Shown here: positions 4,206 to 15,683 of the stretch, piece after piece | Layout of the letters: each line of letters opens with the position of its first letter | Position numbering within the stretch: the first letter of the stretch is position 1 | Program-made: the position numbers and the translations under genes | The notes under the pieces: model-generated | Told to the model about the DNA's origin: nothing | The model's input: the letters and a program-made list of their open reading frames with translations, nothing else | The model's database searches: none | NCBI RefSeq assembly: GCF_024449025.1 | Contig: NZ_JAHLKM010000013.1 | Coordinates: 1 to 64,000 of the forward strand | Length of the DNA stretch: 64,000 nucleotides | Direction of reading: 5' to 3' | DNA from: Natronomonas aquatica | GTDB lineage: Archaea > Halobacteriota > Halobacteria > Halobacteriales > Haloarculaceae

Positions 4206-5576
4206 TCAATCTTGATCTGAAGATGCGGATGAACCATCTATCCAGAAAACATTGTCTGTATGTGTGACTCTACTTATGACTATATTATTCGCATTTATAT
4301 TCATTTTATCCAAGTTTGATTTGACTTCCTCTATAGTTAGATCCGGGACTTTTTGTTTCCCCTTCCCAGTTCTTTCTTTATTCATTCGTTTGTCTAGGCC
4401 ACTTATACCAAGAATATGTGGAGTTATCGGCTGCTGTTTCACTATAGATTTCATTTTTTGTGAAATTGACAGGGGCGGATATTTGGCTGATCCCCCACTT
4501 TTCGTTAGTCTATGTATAACCTTTGCCATTTTCGGGGCAGCCATTTCATCTACATTCGCGAGCCACATCTTCAATTCCGACTTTTGCTTATCAGTGAGTT
4601 TGTATTCAATTTTGTTTTCGGATGCATTAATGTATTGCAGCACTTCGTTGAGGGTCTTTGCGGAGTAGCTTACGAAATTCGGAAGAGAAAATTCCTTAGC
4701 TTTCATTCCTACGTCCGGCTCGAACGCAATTACTTTTTTATTCAGGAGGGCACTTTCGACTCCGGTGGTGCAGTTGTTGTGGATGACCGCATCTGCACCC
4801 ATTATCCAGTGTCGAACATCACCTGAGAACTCTACGTGTATACCGGACGGGTCATCAAACTCTGACTGATATGTTTCGTGATCTTCACCAGGATGCGGCC
4901 GTACAATAATCTCTTTTTCAACAGCGTTGCTCAGATCACCGGTGACCGACAGAAACTCGTCAAAAATCCTTGATCGATATTCCAATCTGTGCTCACTTAT
5001 ATTAATTTCTCTTTCATCAAATACTTGATTTATATTTTCTTCGCTGTAAGAGTTGGTCACTCCGAAGTTCGTATTTATTAAAATATAGTTGCCAAACTCT
5101 TCTTTTAGTTTTTTTGCTTGTTCCGAATAGAACTCTCGAAGTTCAGGGCGAAGAAGGTCAAATCTCGGATTTCCAGTCACATGGATATTTTCCGGAGAAT
5201 ATGTCGTTTCCTCCAAGGCACTTGCTTGAATTTCTCCCCAGGCAAAGATCGCGTCAACATATTCTAATAACTCTTCTGTGACCCGCATCTCTAACCACTT
5301 ATTTTTAGAACTACCCAAACCGCCCTCAGAATCCAGTACAGTAACACTCGCCCCATACTGTTTTAACTGCTCAAATATCTTTTCCGTTCCCCCACCTTTA
5401 CACATTGATTTTGAGATATAAATGTCTGGCTTCACTTCTTCGAATAGGGTTGCTCTCAGGTGAGATTTATCACCCAAAGCTACTTTATGACCTGCTCTCG
5501 CCAACTTTGCTGCTAGCCAGAGTTTACCGTGGAACTCCCTTGCTTTAATCTCAATAGGTATACCGATAACAGACAT
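4206..5576 (-). CDS. Surface carbohydrate biosynthesis protein (GT-B-like)
   Basis: This 456-residue protein resembles the 'surface carbohydrate biosynthesis protein' group related to CDP-glycerol glycerophosphotransferases and other GT-B folds. An N-terminal Rossmann-like half (VIGIPIEIKAREF, ARAGHKVALGD) is followed by the typical IHVTGNPRFDLLRP segment near residues 135-150. A C-terminal nucleotide-binding half has IIVRPHPGED and the block GADAVIHNNCTTGVESALL. This group often accompanies nonulosonic-acid genes and may transfer such a sugar; I infer that role, it is not shown. The gene is AT-rich and transcribed away from the four-gene set starting at 5747. The last ~110 residues are a less conserved charged tail. 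The ATG at 5576 gives a normal N terminus. Confidence 0.7.
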   Translation of the reverse strand: MSVIGIPIEIKAREFHGKLWLAAKLARAGHKVALGDKSHLRATLFEEVKPDIYISKSMCKGGGTEKIFEQLKQYGASVTVLDSEGGLGSSKNKWLEMRVTEELLEYVDAIFAWGEIQASALEETTYSPENIHVTGNPRFDLLRPELREFYSEQAKKLKEEFGNYILINTNFGVTNSYSEENINQVFDEREINISEHRLEYRSRIFDEFLSVTGDLSNAVEKEIIVRPHPGEDHETYQSEFDDPSGIHVEFSGDVRHWIMGADAVIHNNCTTGVESALLNKKVIAFEPDVGMKAKEFSLPNFVSYSAKTLNEVLQYINASENKIEYKLTDKQKSELKMWLANVDEMAAPKMAKVIHRLTKSGGSAKYPPLSISQKMKSIVKQQPITPHILGISGLDKRMNKERTGKGKQKVPDLTIEEVKSNLDKMNINANNIVISRVTHTDNVFWIDGSSASSDQD

Positions 5577-5746: not shown

Positions 5747-6397
5747 ATGCATGTCGTTGCGAGTGTTCAGGCGAGACTCGGGTCGACTCGGCTCCCCGGG
5801 AAGGTTCTATTCCATCTCGGTGACCGTCGGTTACTGCAGTGGCCAATTGACCGAGCAAAAGCTTCTGAGACTGTTGATGAAACGGTGGCTGCTATCGGCA
5901 ATCAGTCCGAAAATGACGCAGTCAGGGAGTACTGCAAGCGTGCAGGGATTGATTATATTGTAGGACCAGAAAATAATCTTCTGACACGGCACCTCACTGT
6001 CATAGATCAAACCGACTGCGATTTGCTTGTCCGTATCACTGCCGATTGTCCGTTCGTCCCAAGCGAAGAGATCGACAGAGTTGTCAAAGAACACTTGTCA
6101 AACGATTCTCGATACACCACAAATGTTGTAGATGAGATGCCGATCGGAATCGGTGTAGATGCTATTGATCCTAGTCTTCTTGCCGAATTCAAGTCTCTTG
6201 GGGAAACCCATCCGGTGAAGCGGGCACGTACAAACCCTGAAGGTTGGGATATCGCTTGGAGCAAAAATACATCATGGAGTGCGGTCTCAGATGCTCATAT
6301 TGCTGTTGACACTCCAAGAGATTATTGGTCGCTAGTCGACGCGCTAGATGCTGTTGGAGATGACCCGCGTTCGATCGCCGAATGGATTTCCCAGTAG
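5747..6397 (+). CDS. SpsF/PseF-like sugar cytidylyltransferase
   Basis: This 216-residue nucleotidyltransferase has the N-terminal loop ASVQARLGSTRLPGK (residues 5-19), the CTP-binding signature of CMP-sugar synthetases of the SpsF/PseF group. The metal-binding region LVRITADCPFV is around residues 95-105, and the C terminus has HIAVDTPRDYW. The expected reaction is activation of a nonulosonic acid with CTP to a CMP-sugar, the last soluble step of the pseudaminic/legionaminic pathway. It is slightly short for the family. It is the first gene of a rightward set with the FAH-like gene (36-base gap), the PseG-like gene and a formyltransferase. AT-rich, TATA-like sequence lies in the divergent region 5577-5746. 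Confidence 0.78.
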   Translation: MHVVASVQARLGSTRLPGKVLFHLGDRRLLQWPIDRAKASETVDETVAAIGNQSENDAVREYCKRAGIDYIVGPENNLLTRHLTVIDQTDCDLLVRITADCPFVPSEEIDRVVKEHLSNDSRYTTNVVDEMPIGIGVDAIDPSLLAEFKSLGETHPVKRARTNPEGWDIAWSKNTSWSAVSDAHIAVDTPRDYWSLVDALDAVGDDPRSIAEWISQ

Positions 6398-6433: not shown

Positions 6434-7087
6434 ATGGAACTTCCGAAAGAAGACATTGGAAAGTTCGTAGCCCTTGGTGGGACCTTTCGGTCGCATCTTG
6501 ACGAGAAAGATCGAACATATCGATGGCCGGATCTCTGGATTGTCCCTTCCGAGGGAGTAATCAATGAACAGGAGACAATTAAGATACCAGAGCGCGTCGA
6601 AAAAGTAAAGCCAGGATCCGAAATAACGGCAGTCATTGGAGAGGAAATCTACGAGGCCGACGAAACAGAAGCCTGGGACGCAATCAAGGGATTTACTATT
6701 TCCAACGATGTGACTGCATCGGGTGACTGGCCCGGTTGGTCTGATCCTGATCACGGTATGATCACAGGAGTCGGATACAAACTGCTCCCAACGTTCTCCC
6801 CGATATTCAGTGAATACGTTGAAAAAAGTGAGGAAGCAGACTACAATAACCTCTCCGTTGAGGTTCGCGTTGACGGCGATATCACTGTCTCAGGATCGAC
6901 TGCTCAAATGGCGTTTTCAATCCCTGAAATGGTATCGTTTGCAAGCAACATCTGCGAACTTCACGAAAATGACGTCATCGCCCTTGGTGATCCTGGCAAT
7001 CCAACGAACTTCCTTGATAACGCCGACTCTGTAACCTGCAAAATAGAAGGGATCGGTGAGTTGACAAACCCAATCGAACGCGTATAA
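6434..7087 (+). CDS. Fumarylacetoacetate-hydrolase-fold protein in a nonulosonate cluster
   Basis: This 217-residue protein matches the FAH-family core by motif order: EITAVIG (residues 63-69), GFTISNDVTA with Asp92, the YKLLPTFSP segment with Lys116, LSVEVRVDG, a terminal ALGDPGNPTN turn, and IEGIGELTNPIE. FAH proteins are metal-dependent C-C hydrolases, isomerases or decarboxylases acting on 2-oxo-type acids. In FAHD1-type enzymes the metal is held by Glu-x-Glu and an Asp 29 residues later. Here the second Glu (63) and the Asp (92) are kept at exactly that spacing, but the first Glu position is Gly61, so metal binding or activity may be altered. The gene lies 36 bases after the cytidylyltransferase gene and 6 bases before the PseG-like gene. 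The role in the sugar pathway is unknown. Confidence 0.72.
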   Translation: MELPKEDIGKFVALGGTFRSHLDEKDRTYRWPDLWIVPSEGVINEQETIKIPERVEKVKPGSEITAVIGEEIYEADETEAWDAIKGFTISNDVTASGDWPGWSDPDHGMITGVGYKLLPTFSPIFSEYVEKSEEADYNNLSVEVRVDGDITVSGSTAQMAFSIPEMVSFASNICELHENDVIALGDPGNPTNFLDNADSVTCKIEGIGELTNPIERV

Positions 7088-7093
7088 TGATAG

Positions 7094-8101
7094 ATGCATG
7101 TTGTAATTCGTGCTGATGGTGGGCCAAAAATCGGTTATGGCCATCTAGTTCGTTCAGAGGCTCTCGCTGAAGAGCTACTCAGCCGAGGATATGAAGTTAC
7201 GGTCGCAACGACAACTCCTCAACCGGCCGAAACAGTATTCGCCGCCGATATAGAGACAATCAAACTCCCGTCTAGAAATGATCCCACACCATTCGTCAAG
7301 GAGCTTGAAACTCTTTTGCCGGACATTGTTTTCACGGATGCATATCCAATAGACACGAAGTATCAGCGTACGATACGAGGTCACGTCTCACTTGCTGTTT
7401 TTCAGGATGACGCCCGCCATGCCATCTGTACGGATCTATTCGTGAACGGCAACCTACATGCGGCAGATCTTAATTACAAGTTCGTGGAGCAAATCCCCAA
7501 AACCTGCCTTGGGACCGACTACGTACTCCTTCGACGCGAGATTCAGGGACGTAGAAATGATGATCCACCATGGCGAAAACGTCCCCAGCGTGCTATCGTC
7601 ACGATGGGAGGAAGCGATATAGCTCGTTTAACTCCAACGATCGTCAAAGCGTTTGATGGCGTTGATCTCCACGTAGATGCGATTATCGGCCCAGGATGCT
7701 CTGTAGAGCACGAGCGAAATGTTCGCCAAGCAGCGAATGATTGTTCCACGGATATACATGTTATCCGTGATCCAAATGATCTGGCTGAACGCATGTTCCA
7801 AGCCGATTTCGCGGTGAGTACGGCCAGTAGCACCACCTATGAACTTCTCGCCCTTGGAACACCCATCGTGAGTATTCCAGTGGCAGAAAACCAACAGCCG
7901 ATTGCTACAGCACTCCGGAGCCGAGACATTGCAACTGTGCTGGAAAGCGAGGACGGCGAAGAAGCGTTCACTAATGCGATTGAGGAGTATATTAATAACA
8001 CTCAGCTACGTCGGGCACGACGTATATCTGGACGTAAGTTGGTGGATGGCAAAGGCGCAAAACGAATAGCAGATGCTATGATCGACGTGGCTAATCGATA
8101 A
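7094..8101 (+). CDS. pseG: PseG-like UDP-diacetamido-trideoxy-sugar hydrolase
   Basis: This 335-residue GT-B-like protein starts with RADGGPKIGYGHLVR, the nucleotide-sugar loop of PseG/SpsG. His17 falls at the position of the catalytic His of PseG. The C-terminal half has VTMGGSD, the FAVSTASSTTYELLALGTP block and PIVSIPVAENQ, the UDP-binding part. PseG releases UDP from UDP-2,4-diacetamido-2,4,6-trideoxy-altrose and leaves the free hexose for the synthase. In this cluster the 4-acyl group may be formyl rather than acetyl. The start ATG at 7094 is 6 bases after the FAH-like stop, so the two are tightly coupled. Gene-family confidence is high; exact substrate is inferred. Confidence 0.8.
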   Translation: MHVVIRADGGPKIGYGHLVRSEALAEELLSRGYEVTVATTTPQPAETVFAADIETIKLPSRNDPTPFVKELETLLPDIVFTDAYPIDTKYQRTIRGHVSLAVFQDDARHAICTDLFVNGNLHAADLNYKFVEQIPKTCLGTDYVLLRREIQGRRNDDPPWRKRPQRAIVTMGGSDIARLTPTIVKAFDGVDLHVDAIIGPGCSVEHERNVRQAANDCSTDIHVIRDPNDLAERMFQADFAVSTASSTTYELLALGTPIVSIPVAENQQPIATALRSRDIATVLESEDGEEAFTNAIEEYINNTQLRRARRISGRKLVDGKGAKRIADAMIDVANR

Positions 8102-8178: not shown

Positions 8179-9426
8179 ATGCGAACAGTTATCGTTGGAA
8201 ATCGTAAGATGGCTTGGCATCTCCTTCGACATACGCTCGATGAAGGCTGGAATATCGTTGGAGCTATCGTTCCAAAAGGTGATTTAGCGGCAAAGCAAGC
8301 GAACTTTGTGCCGTTCTCAGAGCTTGTTGCTGGTACGGATTGTCAATTACACAAGGTGGAAGATATCAATAATGCAGAAACCTTGAGTTGGCTACAAGGG
8401 ATTGACCCGGATATTTGCCTCAGTGGCGGTTGGTCCCAGATCATTAAAAAACGTATATTGAATATACCCGAGCGTGGTTTTTTAGGGTTACATTCCAGTT
8501 GCCTGCCTGCGGGTCGTGGGGGCGCACCAGTAAACTGGAGCATTATTAGCGGAGCAGATAAAGTGGGTATCTCTCTATTCTACTACGAGCCAGGTGTGGA
8601 TGCTGGTGATATAGTTGCACAAGGTTCAGTACCAGTTGAGTACCGTGATGACATCGCGACCGTGTTTGATGAACTGGCAAATGAGGCATGTCAGCTCATT
8701 TCTTCAGTTCAAGAAGAACTAAGAGCAGCGAACATAGACACCGCCCCTCAGTCCCTTTCGGATGCCACGTATCGGCCCCGTCGACAACCTCAAGACGGAA
8801 TAATAAACTGGAATCACAACCCAACAGAACAATACAATTGGATCCGCGCACAGACTGAACCGTATCCCGGCGCGTATACGTTCTATCAGGGCGAGCAGCT
8901 AACGGTATGGGAGGGAAAACCGGTTGATATATCACCACGGGATACAGCAACCGGCGAAGTACTTGCGGTGGGCGCTGAAGAGGGTATAGATGTTCGAACT
9001 GGCGATGGAGCGTTTCGGATCACACGTATCAAAGCTAGTGATCGCCCATCTCGCTGGGCTGACCGCTATGCCCGTGGAATAGAGTTGTCACCGGGGGATC
9101 GCCTCGGTCGTCATCATGCGCCGGATACGTGGCGATATACTGGGATCCGAGGAACAGAAAATACGATATCGTTTGATACGAACCTCAAGCTCGGGAAGTC
9201 CGGTGAAATAACAGTTGTCTCCTTCGCCAAATCGAACTATAATCTCGATGTTTTCGTTTCTCTAAATGGCAATCGAATATTCGAAGACTCAGTTACCGTT
9301 TCAAACGAATATCGCGAGAACGTCAGATATAGACCTACAGAGACAGGTACTCACTCGATAAAGGTTCGGTTCGAGGAAGATGGAGAGTTACTGGACACTC
9401 GATATCTCAAAGTATTCGTCCACTAA
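8179..9426 (+). CDS. Formyltransferase-fold protein with C-terminal beta domain
   Basis: This 415-residue protein has the formyltransferase signature GLHSSCLPAGRGGAPVNW (His105) and GVDAGDIVAQ (Asp141), which would use N10-formyl-tetrahydrofolate. A methionyl-tRNA-formyltransferase-like C-terminal (OB-type) region runs around residues 205-320. In the classic Asn-x-His...Asp triad the Asn position is Gly103, as in some sugar-cluster relatives with GFH/GLH motifs. Residues ~325-415 add a beta-sandwich-like domain (GEITVVSFAK, VSLNGNRIFED, THSIKVRFEEDG) not usual for the family. It is the last gene of the rightward set from 5747. A likely substrate is the 4-amino sugar of the nonulosonate pathway, in place of PseH acetylation (inferred). 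Confidence 0.72.
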   Translation: MRTVIVGNRKMAWHLLRHTLDEGWNIVGAIVPKGDLAAKQANFVPFSELVAGTDCQLHKVEDINNAETLSWLQGIDPDICLSGGWSQIIKKRILNIPERGFLGLHSSCLPAGRGGAPVNWSIISGADKVGISLFYYEPGVDAGDIVAQGSVPVEYRDDIATVFDELANEACQLISSVQEELRAANIDTAPQSLSDATYRPRRQPQDGIINWNHNPTEQYNWIRAQTEPYPGAYTFYQGEQLTVWEGKPVDISPRDTATGEVLAVGAEEGIDVRTGDGAFRITRIKASDRPSRWADRYARGIELSPGDRLGRHHAPDTWRYTGIRGTENTISFDTNLKLGKSGEITVVSFAKSNYNLDVFVSLNGNRIFEDSVTVSNEYRENVRYRPTETGTHSIKVRFEEDGELLDTRYLKVFVH

Positions 9427-9448
9427 TACAGAGTGCACCAAAAAGGGG

Positions 9449-10126
9449 TCACCGTCGTACTTCACGAAGTATTTCAAACGGTTCGGCAGCCGGAACGCCT
9501 GCTTTACTACCCCATACCTCTGTATTCTGTCGAACAGTAGCAATAGTCCTCGGATGTGGCGAATCCCGAAGTTCAGCCTCGTAGACAGAGAGTGCGTCAA
9601 TTTTGGTGTCGAGATGTTGGTTCACGTTAACAAAAGATGTTGGTTGAAATGCATTATCCGGCTTTGGAACAGACCATTCTGTAGCTGAAAGTGTCTCAAA
9701 GGCAAGTACTCGATCGACACTACTGTCAGCAAGTGGCCGTGTCGCAGTAACCGTAGCTTGACAAGCTAGTTCATGATCCACATTGAGGTCTCCGTAATGG
9801 TGTGTGTAGACGATATCGGGGTTGTGTTCAGTAATCTCCGCTTCGATTGTCTGAACGATATCAAGTAGCGGCGCCGTGTCAAAACGGTTGTCTGGGAAAT
9901 CGTGCAAGCTCACGGTTGCACCGAGGATCCTAGCAGCTCGTTCGGCTCTTTCACGACGTCGTTCGATTTCTGCGTCAGCGGCGTCTGTGTCTTCATACCG
10001 TGATGTCACCCCATCTGAAAGAATACAGATGTGTACGTCGTCTCCCTCGGCTGTATGGCGGGCTAGCGTCCCACCGACACCGAGGACCTCGTCATCAGGG
10101 TGAGCGACAATACAGAGAACGGACAT
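9449..10126 (-). CDS. PIG-L/LmbE-type N-deacetylase
   Basis: The protein is 225 residues from the ATG at 10126. A longer frame begins at 10150, but the shorter start puts MSVLCIVAHPDDEVLG at the N terminus, as is usual. The zinc motif AHPDDE (residues ~7-12) and the distal HHYGDLNVDH block (third metal ligand His) are both present. Family members remove acetyl groups from N-acetylhexosamine derivatives such as GlcNAc-PI or bacillithiol/mycothiol precursors. Its place between two formyltransferase genes suggests it frees an amine that is then formylated, but the substrate is not visible. It is convergent with the upstream formyltransferase (22-base gap) and divergent from the second one. Confidence 0.82.
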   Translation of the reverse strand: MSVLCIVAHPDDEVLGVGGTLARHTAEGDDVHICILSDGVTSRYEDTDAADAEIERRRERAERAARILGATVSLHDFPDNRFDTAPLLDIVQTIEAEITEHNPDIVYTHHYGDLNVDHELACQATVTATRPLADSSVDRVLAFETLSATEWSVPKPDNAFQPTSFVNVNQHLDTKIDALSVYEAELRDSPHPRTIATVRQNTEVWGSKAGVPAAEPFEILREVRR

Positions 10127-10206
10127 GAGTCTATTATCAGAAGCAACCATATAGAACGTACCGGTTCGTCATCATTATGTTGCTAAGTCTCATCTACTCT
10201 GGCAAT

Positions 10207-10917
10207 ATGGACGTGATCTTTCTCGGTGTCAACGACATAGGGTTTCGGATATACGAATGGCTGTGTCAGCGCGATCGTGTCGAAATGATTGCCATGCTTA
10301 CGGAGCAAAATCAGCTTGATTTAATCCAGAAACAAGAACCAGATCTTGTCGTCTCTATCGGCTTTAGCTATCTTGTTCCTCCAGAAATTCTTGACGTGCC
10401 GTCCGAAGGCGCACTTAATCTTCATCCGTCTTTCCTCCCATACAACCGCGGAATGAATCCGAACGTTTGGCCGCTCATCGAAGGAACACCAGCTGGCGTG
10501 ACGCTTCACTATATGGATACAAAGTTCGACACGGGGGATATCATCGCACAACGAAAAGTAGAAACAGATTTTTCCGATACTGGGAAAGACCTTCACGAAC
10601 GTCTCGAAGAGGCGCAGTTTGATTTACTCACCGAGGTATGGCCGGAGATTGAAGACGGTGAAATAGAAAGAACCCCACAAGGAGACAGAGCCGAGAGTTA
10701 TCACTCCAAAGCTGATTTCATCGATCTCTGCGAACTTGATCCCCAAAATGAGGTCCGAATTAAAGCGTTTCTGGACCGACTCCGGGCGTTGACGTTCCCT
10801 CCCTTCGACAACGCCTATATCGAGATTGATGGTGAAAAATACTACGTAGATATTGATATAAGAAAGGCGGTGAACGAGTCAGAAGACAAGAACGATGGGT
10901 TGTTGTCGTCCTATTGA
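10207..10917 (+). CDS. Formyltransferase, canonical active site
   Basis: The protein is 236 residues from the ATG at 10207; an alternative in-frame start at 10177 adds ten residues. The fold starts MDVIFLGVNDIG. The catalytic set is complete: Asn71 and His73 in NLHPSFLPYNRG, and Asp108 in KFDTGDIIAQ. It lacks the full tRNA-binding C domain of methionyl-tRNA formyltransferase, which fits a sugar N-formyltransferase like those making formamido-hexoses. Its end overlaps the end of the NeuB/PseI-like gene by 7 bases on the opposite strand. I infer that it formylates an amino group on the nonulosonate or its precursor. Substrate and position are open. Confidence 0.78.
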   Translation: MDVIFLGVNDIGFRIYEWLCQRDRVEMIAMLTEQNQLDLIQKQEPDLVVSIGFSYLVPPEILDVPSEGALNLHPSFLPYNRGMNPNVWPLIEGTPAGVTLHYMDTKFDTGDIIAQRKVETDFSDTGKDLHERLEEAQFDLLTEVWPEIEDGEIERTPQGDRAESYHSKADFIDLCELDPQNEVRIKAFLDRLRALTFPPFDNAYIEIDGEKYYVDIDIRKAVNESEDKNDGLLSSY

Positions 10918-11963
10918 TCTTTCACATCGCTCCACCGTATTCCAGCACTTTGTTCGACATTACGCGTTGCAATCTTTCCGAGGATTTCTTCGTAATACTT
11001 TGGATGAAGTCCAGCCTCGCGTTCGCCAGGGCGAAGAATTTTCACGTTCTTCGAAGTGAATGACTCGCCGGCGGAGATATCTTCGACAGCGTGAATAGCA
11101 CGCCGAGCCTTCCTGTAAAGTTCATCTTCGGCATCAAGGACGAATTTCTCTCCCGTCCCGAGCGCGGATTCGGTGTCCCGAATTGCCGTTATCATTTCAG
11201 ATAGCTCCTCGGGTTCAAGCGCAAACTGGTGGTCGGGACCCTCCATCGTCTTATCAAGCGTAAAGTGTTTTTCAACGATGCTCGCCCCGAGTGCGACCGC
11301 GGCCGAAGGAGCAGTAACTGGATCAAGCGTGTGGTCGGAAAGACCAGCAGGTACCTCGAACTCGTCGACAAGTGTTTCGACAACCTTCACGTTAATTTCC
11401 TCAATGGGAGTCGGATAGGAGGCGACACACTGAAGCAATGCGAAATCTTCCGCTCCCGTGTCTTTTAACAAATCGACAGATTCCCGAATTTCGTCAAGTT
11501 CGTGGGCACCAGTCGACATGATAATTGGTTTTTCCGACGCTGCGAGCGAGCGGAGAAATGGATGATGGCTGCTCGTGTAGCTTGCGACCTTCCACGCGGG
11601 TACGTACTCTTTGAGTACCTCCGCGGACTCCTCATCGAATGGGGTAGATAGGAAGTGAATATCTTGCTCATCACAATATCCATGAAGCTCCGGAATCCAC
11701 TCGTAGGGCATCTCCATCGATTCAATAATATCGTAAATTGAGCGATCGTCATCGAGATATTCCACCTCCCCGCTGTCTTCGACGTACATGTCCTCGGCCC
11801 GGAACGTCTGAAACTTCACCGCGTCAGCTCCCGCGTCAACAGAGACGTCAATAAGTTTCTTCGCCATCTCCAGATCGCCGTTGTGGTTCGATCCAGCCTC
11901 CGCGATAACAAACGTGGGCTCTCCCGGCCCAACAGTACGATCGCCGATCTCAAACGTGTCCAT
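10911..11963 (-). CDS. pseI: NeuB/PseI-like nonulosonic acid synthase
   Basis: The protein is 350 residues from the ATG at 11963; the frame is open nine codons further up. The TIM-barrel synthase begins with FVIAEAGSNHNGD (residues ~18-30), DAVKFQTF, FLSTPFDE, IMSTGAHEL, LSDHTLD and EKHFTLDK. A C-terminal SAF/antifreeze-like domain follows from ~290 (RRAIHAVEDISAGE, LRPGE, ILGKIATR). The enzyme condenses a 2,4-diacylamino-trideoxyhexose with phosphoenolpyruvate to give a nine-carbon nonulosonic acid. The overall pattern is closer to PseI/LegI than to MaoC-like or DAHP proteins. It is last in the leftward set 15161-10911 and lies 35 bases downstream of the aminotransferase gene. Confidence 0.87.
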   Translation of the reverse strand: MDTFEIGDRTVGPGEPTFVIAEAGSNHNGDLEMAKKLIDVSVDAGADAVKFQTFRAEDMYVEDSGEVEYLDDDRSIYDIIESMEMPYEWIPELHGYCDEQDIHFLSTPFDEESAEVLKEYVPAWKVASYTSSHHPFLRSLAASEKPIIMSTGAHELDEIRESVDLLKDTGAEDFALLQCVASYPTPIEEINVKVVETLVDEFEVPAGLSDHTLDPVTAPSAAVALGASIVEKHFTLDKTMEGPDHQFALEPEELSEMITAIRDTESALGTGEKFVLDAEDELYRKARRAIHAVEDISAGESFTSKNVKILRPGEREAGLHPKYYEEILGKIATRNVEQSAGIRWSDVKDQ

Positions 11964-11998
11964 ACTGCCGTAAGAGAAACCACGAGGCAAAAACCCAC

Positions 11999-13186
11999 CT
12001 ACTCAGCGTGGAAATCGTATAGCCGACACACTGCATCAATCACATCTCCGATATCGCTCGGACTCATCTCCGGATGCAGCGGCAAGCTTACGAGACGCTC
12101 ATACACACGCTCTGTTTCGGGGAATATCCCCTGTTCGTAACCGTATTCTTCTTGAAAAAACGGGTGATAATGAAGTGGGACGTAGTGCACCTGTACACCG
12201 ATATTTTCCGCGTGCATTGCGTTGACGAACTCCTCGCGGCCACAGCCGAACGCTTCGCTGATCTCAGCCGCGTAAAGATGGTACATCGGATCGGATTCGA
12301 CTGGATCGGGAGGTGTACGAATCCCATCAATTGTCGCAAACGCCTCGTCATACCGATCAATGATCTCATCACGACACCGCTTGAACTCCTCAAGCCGATC
12401 GAGTTGTGCGAGTCCTAGTGCGGCCTGGATATCCGTTACATTATAGTTGTACCCCACCCCTTCAGTTACCTGATACCACGGTTCGTTCTCGTGACCGGCA
12501 GGATCGTACTCCATATCGAACGACCGGAGTCGACGGAGTCGCTCCGCGAGCTCGTTGTCATCCGTGACAACCATTCCGCCCTCGCCAGTCGTGATGTTCT
12601 TGACCGGATGGAAGCTGAACATCGCCATATCACGCTGGGCGCCGATCGCTTCGTCGCGCCACGTCCCACCGAAAGCGTGGCAGGCATCCCAAATAACTGT
12701 CAGATCGTGGTCGTCAGCGACATCTAGCAATCCCTCAATATCTGCCGGATGTCCGGCGTAATGCATCGGAACGAGACCGACAGTATCCTCAGACACTTGC
12801 TCCCGAACAGCGTCGGGATCGAGCGCCCGGCGATGCGGATCGATATCCGCGAACACAGGCGTTGCATCGTTATACGTCGCTACGTGGGCAGTCGAAGTAA
12901 ACGTCAGCGGTGTGGTAATCACCTCGTCACCGGAACCAAACCCAGCAGCGTCACCGGCGAGATGTAACGCTGTCGTCCCTGAAGTCGTCGCGACGGCATG
13001 TTCGACACCAACCATCTCTGCAACTCGTTCCTCAAACTCATCGACCGTCGGGCCTCGCGTAATATAGTCGCCTTCGAGCGCCTCCAGAACAGCCTCCTTT
13101 TCGTGCTCTGTGATACTTTGGCTACCATATCCCAATACACTCTCTCGAACCGGTTCGCCACCATAGTACGCAGGTTTGTTTGACAT
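11999..13186 (-). CDS. pseC: PseC-like PLP aminotransferase (DegT/DnrJ/EryC1)
   Basis: The protein is 395 residues from ATG 13186, preferred over a non-ATG start at 13195, which would overlap the upstream stop. Sugar aminotransferase motifs are GDYITRGPTVDEFE, the PLP phosphate loop ATTSGTTALHLA (residues ~66-77), DACHAFGG with the ring-binding Asp167, and the Schiff-base Lys196 in FHPVKNITTGEGG. A GYNYNVTDIQAALGL segment follows. PseC-type enzymes convert the 4-keto-6-deoxy product of PseB into the 4-amino sugar using glutamate. It starts 6 bases after the SDR stop. The family is certain; PseC versus LegC or another 4-aminotransferase cannot be decided by eye. Confidence 0.87.
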   Translation of the reverse strand: MSNKPAYYGGEPVRESVLGYGSQSITEHEKEAVLEALEGDYITRGPTVDEFEERVAEMVGVEHAVATTSGTTALHLAGDAAGFGSGDEVITTPLTFTSTAHVATYNDATPVFADIDPHRRALDPDAVREQVSEDTVGLVPMHYAGHPADIEGLLDVADDHDLTVIWDACHAFGGTWRDEAIGAQRDMAMFSFHPVKNITTGEGGMVVTDDNELAERLRRLRSFDMEYDPAGHENEPWYQVTEGVGYNYNVTDIQAALGLAQLDRLEEFKRCRDEIIDRYDEAFATIDGIRTPPDPVESDPMYHLYAAEISEAFGCGREEFVNAMHAENIGVQVHYVPLHYHPFFQEEYGYEQGIFPETERVYERLVSLPLHPEMSPSDIGDVIDAVCRLYDFHAE

Positions 13187-13191
13187 ACCGA

Positions 13192-14136
13192 TCACTCCTG
13201 TTCGGCGAGCCAGTCACGGAGCCGATCGATCCCCTCCTCAAGAGAGACCTTAGGCTCCCAATCAAGCATTTCCTTCGCCTTGGTCGGATCACAGAGTAAT
13301 TTCTGAACCTCGCTCTGTGGATGGTGGTGTTCGACGTGGGTAATCTCAGTTCCCTCCGTCGCGATCGTCTCTGCGAGTTCGTTAATCGAGATATCCGAAC
13401 CGGTACCAGCATTGAGAACCTCACCGACAGCGTCGTCAGAAAACGTTCCATCGACAATAAACCTCGCACAATCGGTCACGTACATGAGATCTCGGGTCTG
13501 TGTCCCGTCGCCGAAAATCTTCAACGGCTCACCCTGCAGATCTCGGCTTGTAAAGATCGACACCACGCCGCCGGCCATCCCCGTCTTCTGGAAGGGCCCA
13601 TAGGTATTGAACGGACGCAGGATCGTCACCGGAAGATCGTAGCCGTGATAGTAACTCTCCGCGATATTCTCCGCAGCCAGTTTCGTCCCGGCGTACGGAG
13701 AGGCCGGTTTCACCGGATGTGACTCATCAATCCCAGCTTCGGAATCAACCATATCGTACACCATGCAGGTTCCGACGAGTCCGAGGCGAGTATCTGTCGT
13801 CCGACACGCTTCCAAAACGTGTTCAGTCCCGACGACGTTCGTCTCAAAGTGAGATTGGGGATCGTCAAGACTCTCCTGAACATCGATTTCGGCCGCGAGG
13901 TGGATACAGGCGTCTACGTCGTCATCCAGCAGTTCCTCAACAACCCCGGACTCGGAAACATCCCCAACAGTAAGATCAAACCGTTCGGTAGACTCGAACG
14001 AAGCAACGTTTCGTCGAGAACCGTTCGAGAGATCGTCGAGTCCACGGACACTGAATCCACGATCGAGCAGCTCCTTGACCACCCAGCGGCCAATAAACCC
14101 GGCTGCTCCGGTTACTACGACGGTACCACGTGTCAT
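13192..14136 (-). CDS. Extended SDR: NAD-dependent sugar epimerase/dehydratase
   Basis: This 314-residue extended SDR has the NAD-binding motif VVVTGAAGFIGRW (GxxGxxG, residues 6-18), DVDACIHLAA, catalytic Tyr/Lys in SPYAGTKLAAE, RPFNTYGP and the C-terminal GDGTQTRDLMYV. It could be a GalE-type 4-epimerase or a LegB-like 4,6-dehydratase; the sequence alone does not separate them. Its stop codon lies six bases before the aminotransferase ATG, and its start overlaps the PseB-like stop by 4 bases (ATGA arrangement). The three genes are therefore one translationally coupled unit. Having both this SDR and a PseB-like enzyme suggests either two sugar precursors or a switch between pseudaminic- and legionaminic-type stereochemistry (inferred). 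Confidence 0.78.
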   Translation of the reverse strand: MTRGTVVVTGAAGFIGRWVVKELLDRGFSVRGLDDLSNGSRRNVASFESTERFDLTVGDVSESGVVEELLDDDVDACIHLAAEIDVQESLDDPQSHFETNVVGTEHVLEACRTTDTRLGLVGTCMVYDMVDSEAGIDESHPVKPASPYAGTKLAAENIAESYYHGYDLPVTILRPFNTYGPFQKTGMAGGVVSIFTSRDLQGEPLKIFGDGTQTRDLMYVTDCARFIVDGTFSDDAVGEVLNAGTGSDISINELAETIATEGTEITHVEHHHPQSEVQKLLCDPTKAKEMLDWEPKVSLEEGIDRLRDWLAEQE

Positions 14137-15161
14137 CGGGCGATCCCCTCCTCGAATTCGGTTCGAAGTAGCTCGAATATCTCCTCTCGCACCAGCTTAT
14201 CGGCGTTTTCGGAGGATCGAACGACGCTATCGACGGGTTCGAACCCATCGATTCCGTCGTGAGTAAGATAGCCGTTTTCCCCGGTTTGTTCCGGTAGAAC
14301 GGCATACAGCGACTCGTTTTCGATCGTCCGCGACACTTCTCGCTCGGTTAGTATCTTCTCGTCGAACGTTTCCCCGACGCGTCGACCGGTCTCCGTAATC
14401 TCGATTGCTGCGGGATCGTGTCCGTACTTCGGCGCGAACGCGTCGATCATCGCCCTCGCAAGATCTTCGATCTGGATGGCGTCCATCTTTTGTATGAATA
14501 GCTCTCCACCCTGGGTGTGCTTTATGGCTCCGGTCACTAGTTCGGCGACATCGTCGTAGGTAAGAAAGAATCGGCTCATCCGTGGATCAGTCAACGTCAC
14601 CGGCCCACCCTTCTGTATCTGTTCTCTGAATACCGGAATCACCGACTGTGAGGAGTTTATGACGTTTCCGAAACGAACCGATGCCAGTCGGATATCGTGT
14701 CCCCCGCTGTACTTATTTGCAGCTGTCACAAGCTTTTCTCCGAGGAGCTTTGTGGTTCCCATCGTGTTGGCGGGATGAGCGGCCTTGTCACTACTCGTGA
14801 AAACGAACCGGTTGACCCCGGAATCTATCGAGACGTCGATCAGGCTCTGTAATCCCATCACGTTCGTTTTGACCGCTTCGAACGGATTGTATTCGCTAAC
14901 ATCGACGTGTTTCATCGCCGCCGTATGAACGACGATATCGATTCCATCGACGGCTCTGGCTAACCGATCCTTGTCCCGGATATTCCCAGCTAAAAATCGA
15001 CAGCGTTCATCATCAAGCTCTGTTTTCAGCGCCGCTAATCCGGGTTCACTCTGATCGAGAATTCGAATTACGTTTGGGTCTCGTTCGAGAAAACGACGAA
15101 CCAGAATCCGACCCACCGAACCGGCACCCCCCGTCACGAGAATATTTTTGTTCGTTATCAT
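14133..15161 (-). CDS. pseB: PseB-like UDP-GlcNAc 4,6-dehydratase (inverting)
   Basis: The protein is 342 residues from ATG 15161; the frame is open nine codons upstream. It has NILVTGGAGSVGR, the HTAAMKHVDVSEYNP block, FTSSDKAAHPANTMGTTK, in which the usual catalytic Tyr of YxxxK is Met, then RFGNVINSSQSVIPVF and DPRMSRFFLT. These are the marks of the FlaA1/PseB/CapD C5-inverting 4,6-dehydratase subgroup. It would convert UDP-GlcNAc to the 4-keto-6-deoxy-L-arabino product that PseC aminates. It is the first gene of the leftward nonulosonate set. The long non-coding region 15162-16647 lies upstream and must hold its promoter. The C-terminal ~50 residues look typical for archaeal members. Confidence 0.85.
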   Translation of the reverse strand: MITNKNILVTGGAGSVGRILVRRFLERDPNVIRILDQSEPGLAALKTELDDERCRFLAGNIRDKDRLARAVDGIDIVVHTAAMKHVDVSEYNPFEAVKTNVMGLQSLIDVSIDSGVNRFVFTSSDKAAHPANTMGTTKLLGEKLVTAANKYSGGHDIRLASVRFGNVINSSQSVIPVFREQIQKGGPVTLTDPRMSRFFLTYDDVAELVTGAIKHTQGGELFIQKMDAIQIEDLARAMIDAFAPKYGHDPAAIEITETGRRVGETFDEKILTEREVSRTIENESLYAVLPEQTGENGYLTHDGIDGFEPVDSVVRSSENADKLVREEIFELLRTEFEEGIAR

Positions 15162-15683
15162 TAATTGGAACACGGACTCCTCTGACAAAGTTGTTTTAGT
15201 TTGGCGCCGTTACGATCTTCCGAAGTTCAGTCAGTCATCTTTTGCGGCTGAGAGATCACGCAAGCCTGCGCCTCGTACTCAAACAGTTGAAAGATTGGGA
15301 ATAGCCGCTCGCTGGCTGTGTCTTCTACGATTCCACACCCGACACCGAGACCGGCATCTAGCTACGGGCTTCAGGTGGACTCCGTCGTGGGGACAAAGAA
15401 GTCTCATTTGCGGATGGCGATCCCGACGATCTCGATCCGTCGCTGGAGAGATACCCATCCGCGAGTCGTGCCGGTTTCGCGAATCCGACAGTCGCCAACG
15501 CGAAACTTCCATCGGGAGCGTCGATCAGCCATCTTATCAGATTTAGATCATGATTTTCAGTCCACCAACAGAATCCCTGGATCGCGCTCCGTTGGCGATT
15601 TCGGTCGGCGGCTTCGGTCGAGATGGACTCGATATTGAGTTTTAATTCCGTTTTATTGTCTGAAACAAATATCCCTGTGGATC

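Follow-up and report, generated by a model that had tools for sequence, protein, structure and literature searches.

The 64,000-nucleotide stretch of Natronomonas aquatica DNA analyzed here (the window) carries, at positions 6434–7087 on the + strand, a gene for a 217-amino-acid FAH-fold protein. It lies within a cluster for nonulosonate (NulO) biosynthesis, and all six haloarchaeal NulO clusters in which we found the gene also contain a short cytidylyltransferase of a single clade. This placement and pairing suggest that synthesis of the surface sugar includes an additional step not yet described. The fold family and the type of pathway are both known, and the gene is not part of a new kind of system. 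In the searchable literature, a scope that excludes most subscription journals, we found no description of an FAH-family enzyme in a sialic-acid-like (NulO) pathway.

The open reading frame starts with ATG, 36 bases downstream of the cytidylyltransferase gene and 6 bases upstream of the PseG gene. By profile, its product belongs to the FAH superfamily (PF01557, E 4.3e-34, 118.5 bits against a cut-off of 23.9). A first structure model based on 8 sequences was poor (pLDDT 74), and a second AlphaFold model based on 28 aligned haloarchaeal sequences was adopted (pLDDT 89.5, pTM 0.88). Compared via this model, solved FAH structures gave Z scores of 27.2 (3qdf), 26.9 (FAHD1, 6fog) and 26.5 (L-2,4-diketo-3-deoxyrhamnonate hydrolase, 8gsr). 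The first-pass annotation of the window had assigned the FAH fold and named the lack of a structural match as a result that would speak against it. With the PF01557 profile and model Z scores of about 27 the match is clear: the open reading frame at 6434–7087 encodes a true FAH-fold protein.

The surrounding genes identify the locus as a NulO biosynthesis cluster, based on the presence of both a NeuB synthase and a PseG hydrolase. On the + strand, the FAH gene is preceded by the gene for its constant partner, a 216-amino-acid cytidylyltransferase of the SpsF/CTP_transf_3 type (5747–6397, PF02348), and followed by those for a PseG-type UDP-sugar hydrolase (7094–8101; TIGR03590, 167.7 bits against an equivalog cut-off of 153.55) and two formyltransferases recognized by profile matches, the ArnA/Fmt-like FmtA (8179–9426) and the N-formyltransferase FmtB (10177–10917). 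The – strand encodes a NeuB-family nonulosonate synthase with a SAF domain (10911–11990, PF03102, E 7e-84) and three proteins assigned by NCBIfam profile search: a PseC/LegC-like aminotransferase (11999–13195), a LegB-like NAD-dependent sugar dehydratase (13192–14136) and a PseB-like UDP-GlcNAc 4,6-dehydratase (14133–15188). Also on the – strand, and identified by profile matches, is a PIG-L family deacetylase gene (9449–10150), which together with FmtA forms an optional insertion (8179–10150) separating PseG from FmtB; three clusters lacking the FAH gene (G232, L064; G363, L069; G261, L071) contain this pair as well. The legionaminic acid of Halorubrum sp. PV6 is reported to carry a 5-N-formyl group (PMC6137143), and deacetylation by the PIG-L protein followed by formylation could yield such a group here. 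FmtB seems to replace a PseH-like acetyltransferase; clusters without the FAH gene often have a gene for 170–190 amino acids at that place. Next to the cytidylyltransferase gene, positions 4206–5576 encode a 456-amino-acid protein without a Pfam match; in relatives with the FAH gene this place is occupied by Capsule_synth-like proteins (PF05159), possibly a NulO transferase. The G+C content between 4000 and 12000 is about 47%, compared to 61% window-wide, as expected of an exchanged glycosylation island.

In FAHD1, the metal ligands are E71, E73 and D102, water is activated by H30/E33 and K123 serves as proton donor; E71 forms a network with R106 and Q109, and K43 is close to D102 (PMC8398924, PMC7116474). 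The residues Gly61, Glu63 and Asp92, which the first-pass annotation had singled out as an altered metal site, indeed align with Glu71, Glu73 and Asp102 of FAHD1 (6fog). The window protein thus has two of the three residues of the Glu-x-Glu...Asp triad usual in catalytic FAH members (Gly61-x-Glu63...Asp92). According to the alignment, it retains E73 (as E63), D102 (D92), H30 (H21), E33 (E24) and K123 (K116), whereas E71, R106, Q109 and K43 are replaced by G61, S96, W99 and V37, respectively. In addition, the Thr of the TGTP loop is changed to Asp186, and seven extra residues lengthen the loop that follows D92 relative to FAHD1. Because E71, R106, Q109 and K43 are all replaced, metal binding is unproved and the FAHD1 mechanism is not transferable as a whole. 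Among the roles suggested by the first-pass annotation (tailoring, editing, lactone handling or binding), which the sequence alone does not distinguish, pure binding is less likely, since the protein retains K116, two metal ligands and the H21/E24 dyad.

Among the six orthologs from NulO clusters, position 61 is Gly, or Ala in one case, while H21, E24, E63, D92 and K116 are invariant. The H21/E24 dyad was scored by a separate alignment together with the His+3 spacing, as a gap shifts the Glu24 column in the main alignment (A2). The first Glu and the Thr are present in 17 of 18 other aligned haloarchaeal FAHs, and all ten members of the subfamily are changed at the positions altered in the window protein, including four outside NulO clusters (L043, L044, L050, L051). 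The one exception among the 18 is encoded in the window's own genome (L005, G000:C29:150286-150852): it has Ala for the first Glu, no His corresponding to H30, and the non-acidic Ser at the position of Thr/Asp186. Because this FAH also lacks the first Glu, such a loss is no reason to exclude a protein from the superfamily. In all ten subfamily members, loss of the first Glu coincides with an acidic residue at position 186. Judged from this alignment, the metal-site change is part of a concerted remodelling with linked changes rather than a lone substitution, and the acidic residue may substitute for the lost Glu ligand in a ligand swap. Other FAHs have Thr at this position, which in FAH holds the substrate carboxylate; as it is Asp186 here, the orientation of the substrate may differ.

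The four proteins outside NulO clusters form a sister clade with the same Gly61, Glu63, Asp92, Lys116 and acidic residue 186, but they are only 41–49% identical to the window protein, and three of them have Gln in place of Glu24. The neighbors of L050 encode a gamma-glutamyltransferase, an enolase-superfamily protein, a DASS transporter and a 2-hydroxyacid dehydrogenase. L043, L044 and L050 share a conserved, catabolic-looking locus that also includes an IclR-like regulator, an M29-like peptidase and an SDR. Since the remodelled site is common to this clade, it provides no evidence for a NulO substrate, and we rejected a NulO role as the origin of the Gly61 change. The earlier interpretation therefore stands in part: membership of the pathway is well supported, the metal-site change as an adaptation to NulOs less so.

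A search of 391 haloarchaeal genomes identified five more orthologs (68–81% identity) and two relatives of about 50% identity, below which a gap extends to the zone of generic FAHs at 37% or less. Recurrence beside pseG in other haloarchaea had been named beforehand as a test of pathway membership, and this was indeed observed for all five orthologs: each belongs to a NulO cluster and is separated from the adjacent pseG by no more than 7 bases. Together with the window they represent three families and include genomes of Halorubrum persicum, Halolamina pelagica and Halomicroarcula sp. SYNS111. Full searches of two families did not yield an additional copy in a NulO cluster, and no relative was found in the viral contigs searched. 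Scanning the contigs of 84,980 species with strict patterns returned haloarchaeal loci only. Besides the window itself, a sample of the phylum contained nothing but generic FAHs, none of which exceeded 103 bits (compared to 420), and plasmid records contained one sister-clade copy (Halorussus halophilus, matching G273) and otherwise generic FAHs.

To describe how the gene is distributed, we refer to NulO clusters with or without an FAH ortholog as FAH+ and FAH–. Our comparison set consisted of 25 genomes with a NeuB protein of at least 58% identity, of which 6 are FAH+ and 19 FAH–. The gene does not track the NulO pathway as a whole, a possibility we rejected because 19 of these 25 genomes lack it. 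PseB, LegB, DegT and NeuB are mostly similar between both sets. The cytidylyltransferase is the enzyme that differs. In FAH+ clusters it is short (216–221 amino acids) and 51–71% identical to that of the window, whereas FAH– clusters usually encode a protein of about 250–275 amino acids, some 30 residues longer in most cases, that is at most 40% identical, chiefly over the first ~140 residues. The two types diverge in the acceptor half, presumably the one that binds the sugar acid (GLDVE...REHVT against G-(T/I)-(A/G)-VD...THPVK).

In the cytidylyltransferase tree, all six FAH+ clusters fall into one clade with 100/100 support and no FAH– cluster inside. In contrast, they are scattered in the trees of PseG (6 changes) and NeuB (5 changes), in each case the maximum possible, indicating that the FAH and cytidylyltransferase genes move as one cassette. 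Disregarding descent, the chance of such a perfect match, 6 among the 23 cytidylyltransferases compared, is 1 in 100,947. In five of six clusters the two genes are direct neighbors with about 25–190 bases between them; only in H. persicum (G248) are they separated by a gene for a 386-amino-acid polysaccharide pyruvyl transferase-like protein (PF04230, L038:1928-3088). In the window genome, G248 and G090, PF02348 has the short cytidylyltransferase as its sole member, and hence no other protein of that family is available for the CMP step in these organisms. FmtB shows a weaker association (5 of 5 intact FAH+ clusters, 6 of 19 FAH– clusters), which may reflect descent. This strict coupling to a single cytidylyltransferase clade adds strength to the first-pass view of the FAH protein as a pathway member.

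The FAH proteins are more conserved (68–81% identity among orthologs) than the cytidylyltransferases (51–71%), PseG (47–55%) and also FmtB. A dN of 0.12–0.28, with dS above 1.3 or saturated, demonstrates strong purifying selection. Taken together with the higher conservation compared to the neighbors on the same strand, this favors a working enzyme over a passenger.

Free NulO, the product of NeuB, is a 3-deoxy-2-oxo acid whose C4 bears a hydroxyl group, and it thus offers a suitable handle for FAH chemistry. We place the FAH protein at this free-acid stage because it is the only one between NeuB and the cytidylyltransferase, the sole enzyme whose type changes with FAH. As a general role, we propose that the protein tailors the sugar after NeuB and before CMP transfer, as a metal-dependent FAH enzyme acting on the free NulO, a reading to which we give nearly even chances. 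In such a mechanism, the enzyme would take up the free acid ahead of CMP activation. The metal would hold the 2-oxo carboxylate, with Asp186 assisting as a stand-in for the missing Glu ligand, and would stabilize a C2–C3 enolate. Elimination at C4, re-addition there or both would be the likeliest outcome, by analogy with FAH-fold enzymes that dehydrate or hydrate 2-keto-3-deoxy acids, and the product would then be accepted by the dedicated short cytidylyltransferase. The analysis demonstrates the fold, the placement, the pairing, the conserved residues and the selection, and from these we infer metal binding, substrate and reaction of the protein. FAH-superfamily enzymes dehydrate 2-keto-3-deoxypentonates (PMC6336799), and the fold also includes hydratases, C–C hydrolases and tautomerases that handle 2-oxo acids via a metal-bound enolate (PMC10825186). 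A reaction at C4 is favored because it best matches these precedents, but the particular outcome, a C4-epimerized or C4-deoxygenated NulO, is a proposal of low probability. Slightly more probable, although still doubtful, is the wider formulation that a swapped-ligand FAH enzyme alters C4 (or C3) of the free NulO and that the co-evolved cytidylyltransferase activates only the altered sugar, giving rise to an undescribed NulO. The sister-clade locus L051, which adjoins genes for a UxuA mannonate dehydratase and an RraA-like aldolase, provides supportive context, whereas the lack of the gene in most surveyed NulO clusters counts against a tailoring role.

Instead of tailoring the sugar, the protein could repair or edit metabolites, hydrolyzing or tautomerizing pathway 2-oxo acids that are damaged or incorrect (e.g., 2,4-dioxo or 2,3-enol forms) and thereby shielding a sensitive cytidylyltransferase. 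The hydrolase dyad His21/Glu24 is found in all six NulO copies, whereas three of the four sister-clade proteins, none of them from a NulO cluster, have lost its Glu. FAHD proteins are known as oxaloacetate tautomerases and repair enzymes (PMC10825186), and members of the superfamily cleave 2,4-diketo-3-deoxy acids (PMC6336799), with 8gsr among the close structural matches. However, a repair enzyme would be expected to follow the pathway in general rather than in a minority of NulO genomes, and the strict pairing with one activating enzyme suggests a matched substrate, which makes repair an unlikely explanation. The same pairing would be accounted for by a mutarotase or ring-opening tautomerase that speeds the exchange between open-chain and ring forms and supplies a cytidylyltransferase of special needs with the required anomer. 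We know of no FAH-fold mutarotase, and the conserved water-activating dyad would have no obvious role. The FAH fold has been suggested to have started out as a tautomerase (PMC10825186); even so, we consider this reading decidedly improbable.

Two further explanations do without catalysis on the sugar. As a partner subunit, the FAH protein could complete or stabilize the shortened acceptor half of the short cytidylyltransferase. The strict pairing, the neighboring positions in five of the six clusters and the ~30 missing residues are all consistent with this, but a scaffold would not need invariant H21, E24, E63, D92 and K116, and we regard it as improbable. Direct neighbors at such short distance might also be linked and move together without any shared function. 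Yet the FAH gene has been under long-term purifying selection, the pair survived jointly across three families and was retained in G248 despite the intervening gene, and the cassette was not followed by PseG, although this gene flanks FAH on the opposite side at a distance of no more than 7 bases. A mere passenger is therefore very unlikely, and the tailoring of free NulO remains our preferred reading.

NulOs coat S-layer glycoproteins of archaea and, in one archaeal virus, a structural glycoprotein (PMC6137143). If the proposed role is true, FAH chemistry would reach beyond catabolism into the biosynthesis of sugars, and one more NulO variant would matter for the diversity of archaeal surfaces and for virus–host contact. 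The gene pair comes and goes within a pathway that is otherwise shared, a clean natural experiment in which differences between the surface sugars of FAH+ and FAH– haloarchaea should directly reveal the action of the enzyme.

The closest known pathway is that for legionaminic acid in Halorubrum sp. PV6 (PMC6137143), likewise haloarchaeal, which includes a NeuB homolog, a cytidylyltransferase and a formyltransferase and leads to an N-formyl product. It differs in that no FAH gene is named and in that NeuA- and NeuC-type enzymes take the place of the PseG and short SpsF-type cytidylyltransferase of the window. Of the characterized FAH proteins, the acylpyruvase/oxaloacetate tautomerase FAHD1 shares the fold (6fog, rmsd 2.5 over 209 residues) and the equivalents of the H30–E33 dyad and K123, but at 24% identity its E71-R106-Q109 network and K43 are not preserved. 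The best sequence match among solved structures is the 4-hydroxyphenylacetate isomerase/decarboxylase HpaG/HpcE (1gtt, E 1.5e-25). However, the score of 88.8 bits is well below the NCBIfam equivalog cut-off of 276.4, and the window gene is surrounded by sugar-nucleotide genes instead of genes for aromatic degradation. The 2-keto-3-deoxy sugar acid dehydratases of the KdaD type are more distant (2q19, Z 22.3, rmsd 2.8 over 196 residues, 18% identity; a weak profile match to 2q18, E 0.048, over residues 82–216) and work in a catabolic rather than a biosynthetic setting, but they share the FAH fold and their substrates, 2-keto-3-deoxy sugar acids, resemble NulOs.
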